Positions 49,968-56,519 of a stretch of DNA of 64,000 nucleotides are shown one piece after another. The translations under genes were made by a program, and so were the position numbers. The stretch's first letter is position 1; each line of letters begins with the position of its first letter. The stretch is taken from contig NZ_BOOQ01000015.1 in NCBI RefSeq assembly GCF_016863315.1, positions 1-64,000 of the forward strand, read 5' to 3'. This DNA is from Planotetraspora silvatica (lineage in GTDB: Bacteria; Actinomycetota; Actinomycetes; Streptosporangiales; Streptosporangiaceae). The notes under the pieces are model-generated. The model worked only from the letters and a program-made list of their open reading frames with translations. It had not been told where the DNA came from and did no database searches.

Positions 49968-51077
49968 CTACCCAGCGAGGTCGGCTATGGCGATGACGGG
50001 GCCGCCTCCCGAGGGGCCCTGGTGGACGGCCGCGACGGAGACGAACACGGCCGGGTCGCCGGTCACGCCGGCCGCGACGCCTCCCACGGTGGCCTTGATC
50101 TGCCGGTGCCAGTGCACGTCGGAGTCGTCCAGCATGATGTTGCGCCGTCCGCGGACCCGGCCCGAGGGATCGGCCTCGCACTTCATGAAGACGTTGACCA
50201 GGCGGTCGCCCAGGTCGTCGGGGTGGGGGCGCTCGGGAAGCTCGATGCCGGAGTCGCGGATGGCCTCCCAGATGCCGTCGGCGTCCAGGGCGTCCTTCAT
50301 GACCGAGTGACCCGCCCGGTAGCGGCCGCCGATGCCCCGGACGTTGCCGACCACCACGATCTGGGCCACGTCGAGTTCGACGCCGCTGGAGCACGAGGCG
50401 ACCGACGAGTAGAGGGACAGGTCCTTGTGGATCTGCTCGGCCGCGGGCATCTCGATCTCCCCCAGGGCGACGGCGATGCCGAGCGCGGTCGTGGAGTTGG
50501 AGATGTCCATCGACTTGAGCGTGTCCTCGGTGACGACCGACTGCCCGCGGCGTTTGGCGTCGGTGATCGTCGAAAGCGTGAGCAGCGGGGTCTTGGTCTG
50601 CACGTAGTGGACGTCGGCCGGGTCGTCGATTCCGGCGATCTTCATGGCCTCCCGCACTCCGGCGGCCACCTTCTCCACCATGGCGGGCCTGCCGATGTCC
50701 TCGGGCAGGATCACCTCGCTCATCGCCACGCCGACGCTGACCCGCGGCTCGTCGGTCGGCACGGCCTTGGCCGGATCGAGGCTCGCGAAGACGGTGGCGT
50801 GCGGGCTGAGCACGCCGTCGGTGCCGCCGGACCAGACGAGGGGCACCTGCCTGACCTCGTCCTCCGACCGCGTCCCCTTGGCCACGAGCACCTCGCGGAA
50901 GGCCCGGTCGGCGAGGATGCGGGTGTAGTCGTTCACCCCTCCGTTGCCCTCGGTCTTCCCGATCACCGCCAGGACCCGGTCGGCCTCGATGACTCCGTCG
51001 TCGATCAGCCTGGCGAGCCCGGACGCGTCGGTGACGCTCTCGATGGCGACTTTCCGTACCTCGATCGGATCCGGCAT
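49968..51077 (-). CDS. Ring-opening amidohydrolase (cyanuric acid amidohydrolase / barbiturase family)
   Basis: A 369-aa protein of three pseudo-repeats. Lys41 ([16 protein letters not shown]) and Ser83 (WSGGTDG), and Lys162 (QTKTPLL) and Ser230-Ser231 (SCSSGVELD), match Lys-Ser dyads of the AtzD family; a third Ser lies in QGPSGGGP. The family opens cyanuric acid or barbiturate rings. Its ATG directly follows the carbamate kinase TAG with no spacer, so the two are coupled. Which ring is cut here is not known. Confidence 0.9.
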
Positions 51078-52019
51078 CTATCTCTCCACCCCTCTGGATA
51101 CCCTTGTACCGATATTTCCTGATAGCGCCTCGCCGATGTGCTCCAACGAGGTGATCACTGCCCGCCGCCCGCCGTCCTCGGCGAAACGCAGGGCCGCCTC
51201 CACCTTCGGCCCCATGCTGCCGCCGGCGAAGTGCCCGGCGGCCTGCAGGACACGGAGCGCGTCCGTGGTGATCTCCTCGATCGGCCGGGCGGACGCCGTG
51301 CCGAACCCGATGACCGCGTTCGGCACGTCGGTCGCGATGACCAGGTCCGTCGCGCGCACGGCCCGGGCCAGCGCCGCGGCCGCGAGGTCCTTGTCGATGA
51401 CGGCCTCGACGCCGTCGAGCGTGCCGTCCGCGCCGCGGATGACGGGCACTCCCCCGCCTCCGGCGGCGACCACCGTGTACCCCGCCTCCATGAGGGCGAT
51501 CGCGGCGGGCGCGTCGAGGATCTCCACGGGCTGGGGCGAGGCGACGACCCTGCGCCAGCCACGCTCGAACCGCCGCCAGGTCTGGCCCCGGCCCTCGATG
51601 CGGCGGGCCTCCGCCTCCTCGAAGTACTGCCCGATGGGCTTCACCGGATCCTGGAACGCGGGATCGTCGCGATCGACCAGCGTCCGGGTCACCACGGTGG
51701 CCAGCCGGGCCCGCTCGGGTGCCAGCGCGCGCTCCAGCGCGTTCATCATGAGGGTGCCGATCGTGCCCTGCGTCTGCGCGACGCACCAGTCCAGCGGGAC
51801 CGGCGGCAGGACATGGGCGGTGAGCTGGTTCTTCAGCAGGATGTTGCCGACCTGCGGGCCGTTGCCGTGGGTGAGCATCACCTCGTGACCGGCCCTGATG
51901 AGGCTCGCGACGTGTGTCATCGCCCGCCCGATCGCCCGGTGCTGGTCAGCCGGCGCGGCGCTCCCGTCGGGAGCGGTCATGGCGTTGCCGCCCAGTGCGA
52001 TCAGTATGCGTCCGCCCAC
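51078..52019 (-). CDS. arcC: Carbamate kinase
   Basis: A 313-aa amino-acid-kinase-fold protein. ALGGNAM, LTHGNGPQVGN, AGGGGVPVI, DKDLAAAALA and the final GSMGPKVEAALRF are family motifs. It interconverts carbamoyl phosphate + ADP and carbamate + ATP. No arginine deiminase or ornithine transcarbamoylase gene is near; the downstream partner is a ring-opening amidohydrolase, so carbamoyl groups may come from a ureide pathway. The start is GTG 52019 with a weak ribosome site. GGCGA-ATA-TCGCC at 52056-52068 is a possible operator. Confidence 0.93.
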   Translation of the reverse strand: MGGRILIALGGNAMTAPDGSAAPADQHRAIGRAMTHVASLIRAGHEVMLTHGNGPQVGNILLKNQLTAHVLPPVPLDWCVAQTQGTIGTLMMNALERALAPERARLATVVTRTLVDRDDPAFQDPVKPIGQYFEEAEARRIEGRGQTWRRFERGWRRVVASPQPVEILDAPAAIALMEAGYTVVAAGGGGVPVIRGADGTLDGVEAVIDKDLAAAALARAVRATDLVIATDVPNAVIGFGTASARPIEEITTDALRVLQAAGHFAGGSMGPKVEAALRFAEDGGRRAVITSLEHIGEALSGNIGTRVSRGVER

Positions 52020-54614: not shown

Positions 54615-54795
54615 TTTATGCCCGGGCGGCCTCGACCCCATAGCCCGGCCGGACGGTCGTCGCGGCTCCTCCGCGCGAGCTGGAGCCTCTGTGAATTCCG
54701 GCAAAAAGACCAATTCGGGCCGATTGGCCGACTTCACGCTTAACGGCTCTAGATGGTGCCGTTTCACCGGGTTACTTTCTAGGGATCGGAACATT

Positions 54796-54807
54796 TGGCA
54801 CGTGCCA
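54796..54807. promoter_or_regulatory. Perfect 12-bp palindrome TGGCACGTGCCA upstream of the RyR-domain gene
   Basis: It ends 20 nt before ATG 54828, just ahead of the ribosome site, in the promoter region. Its symmetry and position suggest a repressor site. I see no second copy in the window. Confidence 0.55.
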
Positions 54808-54827
54808 CCCAGTGAAGGACGAGAGGA

Positions 54828-56519
54828 ATGACGCTTTCCGCGACCTTTGTGGTACGGGTCGCTTTCGTGATTCTCGGGCTCTCGGCACTGGCGGCCGGAT
54901 ACATCGGACTGGACATCCTCGCGCCGGTCATGGAGGGACGGCCCCCCACACGTCTCGACATCCTCTACTGGGACCTGCAGCTGTTCGTCTTCGACTCCGC
55001 TCCTCTCGGAGGAAACGGGCCTCTGCCGGCCGCGCTGGAATTCGCCCGGTTCGCCGCGCCGGGAGTCACCGTTTACACCCTGGTCGAAGGCGCCCGTCTG
55101 CTCCTTTCTTCAGAAATGCGGCGGATACGCGCCCGCGAATCCCGTGACCACGTCGTCGTGTGCGGATCCGGAGCGGTGGCGATCGCCCTGGTCGAGAAAC
55201 TCCGCCGCACGAGCGAGAGAATCGTGATGATCGGCCCGTCGGCCACCCCTCCCATGAGCGACAACAAGGTCCTGTACGTCAACGGTGACGCCCGGAGCCC
55301 TTCGACGCTGCGGGCCGCCGGCGTGCAGCGGGCCTCGGTGCTGTACGCCTGCGAAGCCGACAGCTCCGTCAACACCGCCATCGCACTGGCCGCGCACGGT
55401 ATGCCCAGGAGTGGTGACCGGCACCCCCTCTCCGCGTACGCGCACATATCCGATCCCGACCTGTGCGCCGCCCTCCGCGCGCGCAGACTCAGCCTCCCCG
55501 GTACGCCGCGGCTGCGACTGGACTTCTTCAACCTCGACGAGCTGGCCGCCCGCGTGCTGCTCGAACAGCACCCCATCGTGAACGACCGGCCCATCGTGGT
55601 GATCGGGCTCGACGCGTTCGGCCGCAGCCTGCTCACCGAGATCGCCAGGCGACGGCGCCTGCAGGGCTCCCCTCCGCACCGCCTGCCGGTCACGGTGATC
55701 GACGCCCACGCGAGCCAGGCCGCACCCGCCCTGTGCCGCAGATTCGAGTTCATCAGCGAGGTGTGCACGCTCACCTGCCACGACGTCTCACCCAGCGACC
55801 TGCCGCTGACCGACCTGCTGCCCGGAGAGACGCCTCAGCGGGTGTTCGTCTGCTACGCCGACCAGGACCTGGCGCTCAAGACGGCGCTCACATCCCTTCG
55901 GCTGTGGTGTTGCGGGCCCGGCTCCCTGGTCGTGCGGGTCGAGCAGACGGCCACGTTCGGCAGCGCCTTCGACGACGTCCGGCTGCTGGAGGGGCTCTCC
56001 GGGGCCCTGCGCATCTTCGCGATCAACGAGGCGGCGGGCGATCCTCAGCTGATCACCGAGGATCTGGTCGAGACCCTCGCGCGCGCGATCCACGACAACT
56101 ACCTCCTCGTCAACGCGGCCCGCCACACCACCGCCGCCGCGAACGCCTCCATGGTCGGCTGGGACGGGTTGCCTGCGCATCTGAAAGCGGCCAACCGGGC
56201 GCAGGCGGAGGACATCGGCCGCAAACTCGCCGGCATCGGCTGCGCGCTCGCCCCGCGGGTCGAACCGGAACTCGCCTTCGCCTTCAAGGACCACGAGATC
56301 GAGCGACTCTCGCAGATGGAGCACGAGCGCTGGCTCAAGGACCTGATCGGGAACGGCTGGGCGTGGGGCCCGATGAGGGACCCCGAGCGGAGACGGCATC
56401 CCGACCTGGACAGCTGGGACAGGCTGTCGGCGGACGCCAAGGAGAAGGCCCGCGACACCGTGCTGAGCCTGCCGCGGATCCTCGCCGACGCGGGCTTCCA
56501 GATCGTCAGAATCTCGTGA
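54828..56519 (+). CDS. Membrane-anchored TrkA-N-like protein with C-terminal RyR-type domain
   Basis: A 563-aa protein; ATG follows GAGAGGA. One strong N-terminal helix (9-31) and a second weaker one (about 75-96) are followed by two Rossmann-type units: VVVCGSGAVAIALVEKL near 108 and IVVIGLDAFGRSLLTEI near 262, as in RCK/TrkA-N subunits of K+ systems. Residues 497-560 (MEHERWLKDLIGNGWAWGP, then PDLDSWDRLSADAKEKARD) match the RyR domain, a module named from ryanodine receptors. No K+-channel selectivity filter is seen. It is probably a ligand-sensing membrane signalling protein. The stop overlaps or nearly abuts a DUF418 gene. Confidence 0.85.
   Translation: MTLSATFVVRVAFVILGLSALAAGYIGLDILAPVMEGRPPTRLDILYWDLQLFVFDSAPLGGNGPLPAALEFARFAAPGVTVYTLVEGARLLLSSEMRRIRARESRDHVVVCGSGAVAIALVEKLRRTSERIVMIGPSATPPMSDNKVLYVNGDARSPSTLRAAGVQRASVLYACEADSSVNTAIALAAHGMPRSGDRHPLSAYAHISDPDLCAALRARRLSLPGTPRLRLDFFNLDELAARVLLEQHPIVNDRPIVVIGLDAFGRSLLTEIARRRRLQGSPPHRLPVTVIDAHASQAAPALCRRFEFISEVCTLTCHDVSPSDLPLTDLLPGETPQRVFVCYADQDLALKTALTSLRLWCCGPGSLVVRVEQTATFGSAFDDVRLLEGLSGALRIFAINEAAGDPQLITEDLVETLARAIHDNYLLVNAARHTTAAANASMVGWDGLPAHLKAANRAQAEDIGRKLAGIGCALAPRVEPELAFAFKDHEIERLSQMEHERWLKDLIGNGWAWGPMRDPERRRHPDLDSWDRLSADAKEKARDTVLSLPRILADAGFQIVRIS

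Follow-up and report, generated by a model that had tools for sequence, protein, structure and literature searches.

Phage-encoded RyR domains destroy or sequester the cyclic ADP-ribose (cADPR) signals made by TIR proteins, according to the available part of a preprint (PMC13232231). RyDEP, the enzyme described in that part, cleaves the TIR signals 2′/3′cADPR, with H75, W78 and H100 as ligand residues and H75 and D117 as catalytic dyad, and both hydrolysing and sponge-type homologues have been shown (PMC13232231). It is gp78 of mycobacteriophage DyoEdafos (MN234187, PDB 35TM), in whose sequence all four residues were confirmed. Other described systems with points of likeness are Thoeris, which combines the TIR protein ThsB with a cADPR-sensing effector; the FxSxx-COOH system of FxsB, FxsC and a KGGVGR-TIR-TPR protein; the Repeat12 module of the animal ryanodine receptors (RyR1-3); and GsuK (PDB 4GX0-4GX5), a K+ channel of two-transmembrane-helix (2TM)-RCK1-RCK2 layout. 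Here we compare with these a host gene carrying an RyR module in a 64,000-nucleotide stretch of the soil bacterium Planotetraspora silvatica (assembly GCF_016863315.1, contig NZ_BOOQ01000015.1, positions 1 to 64,000), the whole of which is called the window.

The encoded protein begins with a membrane region, continues with RCK1 and a second Rossmann-like unit and ends in a tandem RyR module resembling Repeat12. Because of its channel-like layout, its RyR module and the TIR genes found near its relatives, the protein may serve as a receptor of an alarm signal of ADP-ribose type. The reading we favour, at a probability of roughly 0.55, is that it is a host-encoded, membrane-anchored receptor or effector responding to a TIR-made second messenger of the ADP-ribose type. 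An earlier note, made from the letters of this DNA alone, had picked out the RyR and TrkA-N gene; its observation is confirmed and its interpretation partly supported. The gene and its parts are as follows.

54828-56519, + strand: RyR-domain gene, ATG start, 563-aa open reading frame (ORF) for a membrane, RCK and tandem-RyR protein
54840..54920, + strand: predicted first transmembrane helix, residues 5-31, from hydropathy and a helix at 5-31 in a model of low predicted local distance difference test score (pLDDT)
54951..55130, + strand: loop and possible second helix, residues 42-101, at the position of a K+-channel pore loop and TM2, without TVGYGD
55152..55406, + strand: TrkA-N or RCK1 domain, residues 109-193, from Pfam
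55590..55940, + strand: second Rossmann-like unit, possible RCK2, residues 255-371, from an alpha/beta pattern in the model (pLDDT ~53-86)
56058..56255, + strand: degenerate first RyR repeat, residues 411-476, with H422 kept, Y425 replacing W and N456 replacing D
56298..56507, + strand: second RyR repeat, residues 491-560, with predicted ligand residues H499, W502 and H524
56448..56450, + strand: codon GCC for Ala541, the residue aligned with catalytic D117 of RyDEP

Both domains named in the earlier note were borne out by Pfam profiles, RyR (PF02026) at residues 491-560 (E 9.7e-13, 48.6 bits against a cut-off of 27.4) and TrkA_N at residues 109-193 (E 9e-13, 49 bits against 23.8). NAD_binding_7, above its cut-off, and Slo-like_RCK, below it, overlap TrkA_N, which is matched by 26 of 26 family members at E<=1 and above cut-off by the window protein. 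In a profile search of its whole genome the window protein was the sole match to PF02026, and none of 14 control genomes had one. As to the two Rossmann-type units that had been claimed, the first stands on its Pfam match; the second (~255-371) is suggested by a low-confidence model, weakly by the match of that model to GsuK, and by a G-x-x-x-F-G motif, with a weak hhalign probability of 20% between the two units.

The C-terminus is a tandem RyR pair, with a predicted fold like that of the nucleotide-binding Repeat12 of human RyR3; its tandem nature was not in the earlier note. The two repeats matched each other in hhalign with a probability of 97.3 (E 2e-11), and in the relatives from genomes G014 and G195 a second PF02026 match lies in the same ORF, below the Pfam cut-off. 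An AlphaFold2 model of residues 400-563, built from 6 sequences, reached a pLDDT of 75, and its best PDB matches were Repeat12 structures of ryanodine receptors, among them those of human RyR3 in complex with ATP, ADP, AMP-PCP or dantrolene. Across the whole tandem the query TM-score was mostly 0.63-0.72 at E ~1e-6, with a root-mean-square deviation (rmsd) mostly of 5-8 Å over ~180-200 columns. The likeness to the animal module lies in the tandem repeat fold and in its being one module of a membrane protein; the animal receptor, however, is a 5000-residue Ca2+ channel, whereas the membrane part of the window protein is one or two helices plus RCK.

Similarity to RyDEP extends to the ligand site. 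The RyR family matched RyDEP with an hhalign probability of 96.8, and the alignment places H75, W78, H100 and D117 at residues 499, 502, 524 and 541 of the window protein. The equivalents of the three RyDEP ligand residues, H499, W502 and H524, are invariant in all 26 full-length members, the window protein included. Position 541 is Asp in 23 of the 26 and Ala in the window protein, L082 (G112) and L098 (G056), so the RyDEP-type glycosidase dyad is incomplete in the window, with His499 kept and Ala541 in place of Asp. This Ala differs from the Planotetraspora mira residue by one base (GCC vs GAC), and a sequencing error in the assembly is possible. Asp was probably lost independently at least twice, since near relatives of the window protein and of L082 have it. 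With the catalytic Asp replaced by Ala, the window protein should, from its sequence, bind without hydrolysing, as a pure sensor. RyDEP shares its RyR/Repeat12 fold and the aligned, conserved ligand residues with this protein, but is a small 138-aa phage enzyme, unlike a host membrane-RCK protein with Ala at D117. The suggestion in the earlier note that the protein may sense a nucleotide-derived ligand thus gains indirect support from the fold match to RyR3 Repeat12, the conserved RyDEP residues and the TIR and SLOG-like clustering in relatives.

Protein searches found two weak plasmid hits and, for the C-terminal RyR module, 7 phage records; a scan of viral contigs gave one locus, which was not used. 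Small RyDEP-like single RyR proteins lie among phage-like genes at seven loci in genomes of the order (L072, L073, L076, L078, L085, L088 and L093), and the L088 copy has relatives in 283 phage records, most of the 40 listed being annotated as hypothetical.

TIR genes accompany many relatives of the window gene. TIR_2 (PF13676) was searched in 34 Actinomycetota genomes with a recognised membrane-RCK-RyR architecture, one copy (G692) being cut by a contig end; genomes with other RyR architectures, a remnant or an unclassifiable ORF were set aside (for example G008, G036, G048, G262, G288, G388, G394, G487, G621, G645 and G694). Expected values were calculated from TIR counts and genome sizes with relatedness ignored, and gene calls were heuristic, the RyR ORF not being shown at several loci of the phylum (for example L162, L166, L172, L174 and L178). 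A TIR_2 match lay within 8 kb of the RyR ORF in 16 of the 34 genomes and 11 of 17 genera, against 0.35 expected; the count was 13 within 5 kb, 6 within 3 kb and 4 within 1 kb (G269, G413, G467 and G695, at 82-157 bp), the last against 0.075 expected. These cases are partly non-independent, as one block is common to G112, G177 and G186, and one genus includes G043, G391, G413 and G467. TIR matches above cut-off occur at L067, L075, L086, L090, L175, L176 and L177; at L175 (G695) the TIR and RyR genes share a strand and are 19 bp apart, and at L075 a profile search found a second TIR gene downstream of RyR that the heuristic gene calls had missed. All 12 TIR domains inspected by eye, 10 at RyR loci and 2 in the Fxs cluster of the P. 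silvatica genome, have Glu at the presumed catalytic site, which we take to be the NADase catalytic glutamate of NAD-cleaving TIRs.

Two forms of linkage can be compared with described systems. At L175, L176 and L177 a TIR gene adjoins the gene of a predicted cADPR-binding effector, as in Thoeris; unlike Thoeris, the effector is an RCK-RyR protein, and the TIR gene is not adjacent in the window, the TIR matches of the same genome lying on another contig (C47) and not in the same operon. To our knowledge, RCK-RyR is not among the known kinds of Thoeris effector. In six genomes (G028, G020, G112, G177, G186 and the congener G001) TIR matches assigned to the FxSxx-COOH system lie at a distance of 3.7-6.5 kb from RyR; the NCBIfam models FxsC and FxSxx_TPR match at G028 and FxsB at G020, and the others were recognised by sequence look or frame size only. 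The RyR protein, by contrast, is no named component of that system, and in P. silvatica the RyR gene is not inside the FxsB-FxsC-FxsT cluster, which is on C47. At L176 (5947-7482) TIR is fused to a PknH_C extracellular sensor domain and adjoins a 780-aa RyR membrane protein. Genome G056 has 34 TIR_2 matches in 5 Mb, none of them on its RyR contig, and its RyR protein has Ala at the catalytic position.

A second recurrent neighbour is a SLOG-like gene of ~150-160 aa with a GH(R)...GGT pattern. It abuts the RyR gene (match gaps 9-263 bp) in 9 of 33 genomes with an RyR relative (G020, G031, G112, G142, G177, G186, G216, G241 and G288), against 0.013 expected; the scan scored 12 candidates per genome, and for G020 the coordinates came from L077 and the homology from a separate search. 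The family is common, being found in 181 of 297 genomes of the order. Its members gave matches below cut-off to YAcAr (3 of 12, best E 0.0011), DprA (2 of 12) and YpsA (1 of 12), and its profile found nothing firm in the PDB (DprA, E 0.78). SLOG and TIR domains take part in nucleotide-signalled conflict systems, and RyR is not named in the available parts of either source (PMC9503650, PMC7159879).

RyR pairs also occur on other bodies. In G288 a DUF1003 membrane protein, encoded next to a SLOG-like gene, carries the pair, and C-terminal pairs of 157-163 aa stand alone in G036, G095, G133 and G141. At L164 the gene after that of a DUF4062-AAA-WD40 protein (NACHT below cut-off) encodes a protein of 581 aa that ends in an RyR pair and has no other Pfam match, and L167 and L168 have the same arrangement by eye; the N-terminus of the RyR-pair protein at all three loci has, by eye, HD-like histidines. 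At L163 the pair is on a kinase-like protein, whose Pkinase match stays below cut-off (E 4.5e-4). Nucleotide-signalled conflict systems show this pattern of a single sensor joined to several outputs.

The N-terminal membrane region claimed earlier was found, with a strong hydrophobic stretch at residues 5-23 (Kyte-Doolittle 2.15) preceding the RCK domain and a weak one at 75-93 (1.21) that is no stronger than the Rossmann-unit peaks at 107-125 and 255-273. Within residues 42-101, all 26 members share Y47, Q51, L52, R74, F75 and P78, a degree of conservation beyond the needs of a plain anchor. The absence of a selectivity filter, also claimed, holds: no TVGYG-type motif occurs in the family alignment and the Ion_trans_2 pore family matches 0 of 26 members. 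That the protein is therefore not itself a K+ channel, as the note concluded, does not follow, for the best full-length Foldseek match is GsuK (E 9e-7, TM-score 0.25, rmsd 25 Å), found with a low-confidence model. The GsuK structures matched were solved with ADP and with NAD, according to their PDB titles. The full-length model, built from 6 sequences, has a pLDDT of 58, with low values in the membrane region, and we therefore treat its fold matches as a lead only; the GsuK match is a lead for a channel-derived body of the predicted protein and no proof of a pore. RCK sequence similarity and this fold match link the protein to GsuK, from which it differs in lacking a K+ filter and carrying an extra RyR pair; no pore homology was found in its membrane part.

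The RyR gene is present in 5 of 5 Planotetraspora genomes. In the window and three other genomes of the genus (L030-L032) it lies between an aminotransferase gene and the DUF418 and CN_hydrolase genes, and in P. thailandica only the downstream side is kept; there, two TIR matches lie 3.7-6 kb from the RyR gene (G001:C18), and the frames that contain them, 1318 and 436 aa long, are of FxsT and FxsC size. The window protein is 98% identical to that of P. mira, and a dN/dS of ~0.1 (0.0118/0.1196) indicates purifying selection and thus that the gene is maintained. The survey of neighbours that the earlier note had advised found the aminotransferase, DUF418 and CN_hydrolase genes and no PADLOC match for the RyR and DUF418 proteins, and the window was rejected as a defence island. 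TIR_2 matches in the same genome are confined to C47 (FxsC-like and KGGVGR-TIR proteins), and the one SLOG-like copy is on C49, away from the RyR gene. The KGGVGR-TIR-TPR protein matches the PADLOC candidate defence model PDC-M28B (E 9e-22). By eye, the C47 locus (L137, 5720-13205) is an FxSxx-COOH-type cluster with an FxsB-like radical SAM protein, an FxsC-like TIR protein and the KGGVGR-TIR-TPR protein; it also has an alpha/beta hydrolase gene like that beside RyR in G028, G112 and G186.

Beyond the domain order and the conserved site, the mechanism of the favoured receptor is one that we infer. A TIR partner, whether a stand-alone TIR, a TIR-WD40 protein or FxsC/FxsT of the FxSxx-COOH system, would turn NAD+ into a cyclic ADP-ribose isomer, which the RyR pair would bind. 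Binding would move the RCK ring, which would pull on the membrane helices and change ion permeability, and the infected cell would stop growing or die, as in Thoeris-like abortive infection. In the P. silvatica protein the Asp-to-Ala change would allow binding without hydrolysis, like the sponge homologues in the available part of the RyDEP preprint (PMC13232231), and the partners would be the FxsC-like and KGGVGR-TIR proteins on C47, acting in trans. This trans link is the weakest step.

Several observations weigh against such a receptor. The gene is in all five genomes of the genus, with metabolic flanks on both sides in four and on one side in the fifth, and is under purifying selection, unlike most defence genes; no PADLOC model matches the RyR protein, and its surroundings in the window are free of TIR and SLOG-like genes, those of the genome being on C47 and C49. 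In 18 of the 34 genomes, that of P. silvatica included, TIR matches are absent within 8 kb (the contig is short in some), and most cases at 3.6-5 kb are FxSxx-COOH clusters and not two-gene operons. The expectations ignore relatedness, the three g55 cases being one conserved block and the four g38 cases one genus, and the SLOG assignment is weak (matches below cut-off in 3 of 12 members). Neither Ion_trans_2 (0 of 26) nor hhalign against two pores revealed pore homology, the full-length model is poor (pLDDT 58) and its GsuK match reaches a TM-score of only 0.25 with an rmsd of 25 Å.

The same conservation beside metabolic genes and the dN/dS of ~0.1 would suit the main rival, a housekeeping ion-transport regulator or channel without immune role that reads adenine-nucleotide or NAD state through RCK and the RyR pair; the PDB titles agree with it too, as RyR3 Repeat12 crystals hold ATP, ADP or AMP-PCP and GsuK holds ADP or NAD. 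We nevertheless consider it unlikely, as TIR and SLOG-like linkage is far above expectation and the RyR pair recurs on unrelated membrane or signalling modules near a STAND-like or SLOG-like gene. The catalytic position admits another explanation: Asp in 23 of 26 members together with His in 26 of 26, and the existence of both hydrolysing and sponge-type RyDEP homologues in the available part of the preprint (PMC13232231), would fit a cell-encoded off-switch in which the RyR pair limits self-damage by breaking down or sequestering the TIR signal at the membrane, as RyDEP does for phage. Such a switch has no need of a membrane-RCK output domain, however, and in three members (the window protein, L082 and L098) Ala replaces the catalytic Asp, which leaves such a switch improbable.

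An ordinary RCK-gated K+ channel with a diverged pore has in its favour that GsuK is the best fold match of the low-confidence model and that the top NCBIfam hit is PRK10537, a model for voltage-gated K+ channels, the latter covering the RCK part only, at 40 bits against a cut-off of 425. With no TVGYG-type filter, no pore family in any of 26 members and no significance in hhalign of the membrane part to two channel pores (a weak test with two sequences only), it was rejected and is very improbable. The receptor for a TIR-made messenger remains our preferred reading. Somewhat more tentatively, a chain from TIR, with or without a SLOG-like partner, through a cADPR-type signal to an RyR module on a channel-like membrane protein might constitute an undescribed TIR-signalled membrane effector, a prokaryotic counterpart of the disputed animal cADPR-RyR link.

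The expression control that the earlier note had read from a palindrome found no support, although the palindrome itself lies directly upstream.

54796..54807, no strand: 12-bp perfect palindrome TGGCACGTGCCA, 20 bases to the ATG, probably no operator

It occurs exactly and once in the window and once in the whole 8.66-Mb genome, which offers no hint of a regulon. With 47 perfect 12-bp palindromes the window has no more than chance would give, as 20 first-order Markov sequences average 43.9 (range 27-64). Conservation is patchy: TGGCACGTGCCA is identical in three of five Planotetraspora genomes (window included), one base off in a fourth and absent from the fifth (P. thailandica) and from Thermocatellispora. 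Its role as an operator was rejected on these grounds. A leader motif, GGGTTACTTTC at 54769-54779, is common to four of five Planotetraspora and partly present in Thermocatellispora; GTTACTTTC occurs in all five, and the motif is better conserved than the palindrome. In G008 (L101, 7623-8234) a truncated remnant of the RyR gene, reduced to the membrane region and part of RCK with stops behind them, lies directly before the CN_hydrolase gene, a case of decay in one genus. At 49968-52019 of the window, two adjoining genes look by eye like those for a ring-opening amidohydrolase and a carbamate kinase.

In 2015 Burroughs and co-workers reportedly surveyed nucleotide-centred conflict systems; RyR domains may be mentioned there. 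Among the matches listed in searches for RyR domains with phage defence, TrkA, SLOG, Thoeris or membrane effectors, the RyDEP preprint (PMC13232231) was the sole relevant paper. In their available parts, one further source gives a list entry for a methylated phage RyR protein (PMC13288928), and an axon-degeneration review states that cADPR acts on animal RyR (PMC8295901).

What is new is a TIR-linked candidate effector in which a known sensor fold appears in a new place. A host RyR module on a channel-like, TIR-linked membrane protein would be the receptor side of the chemistry of phage RyDEP, and L175, L176 and L177 are concrete two-gene candidates for defence. The family would also make it possible to study, in a small bacterial setting, whether Repeat12 acts as a membrane-gating cADPR receptor, which has long been asked of animal RyR.
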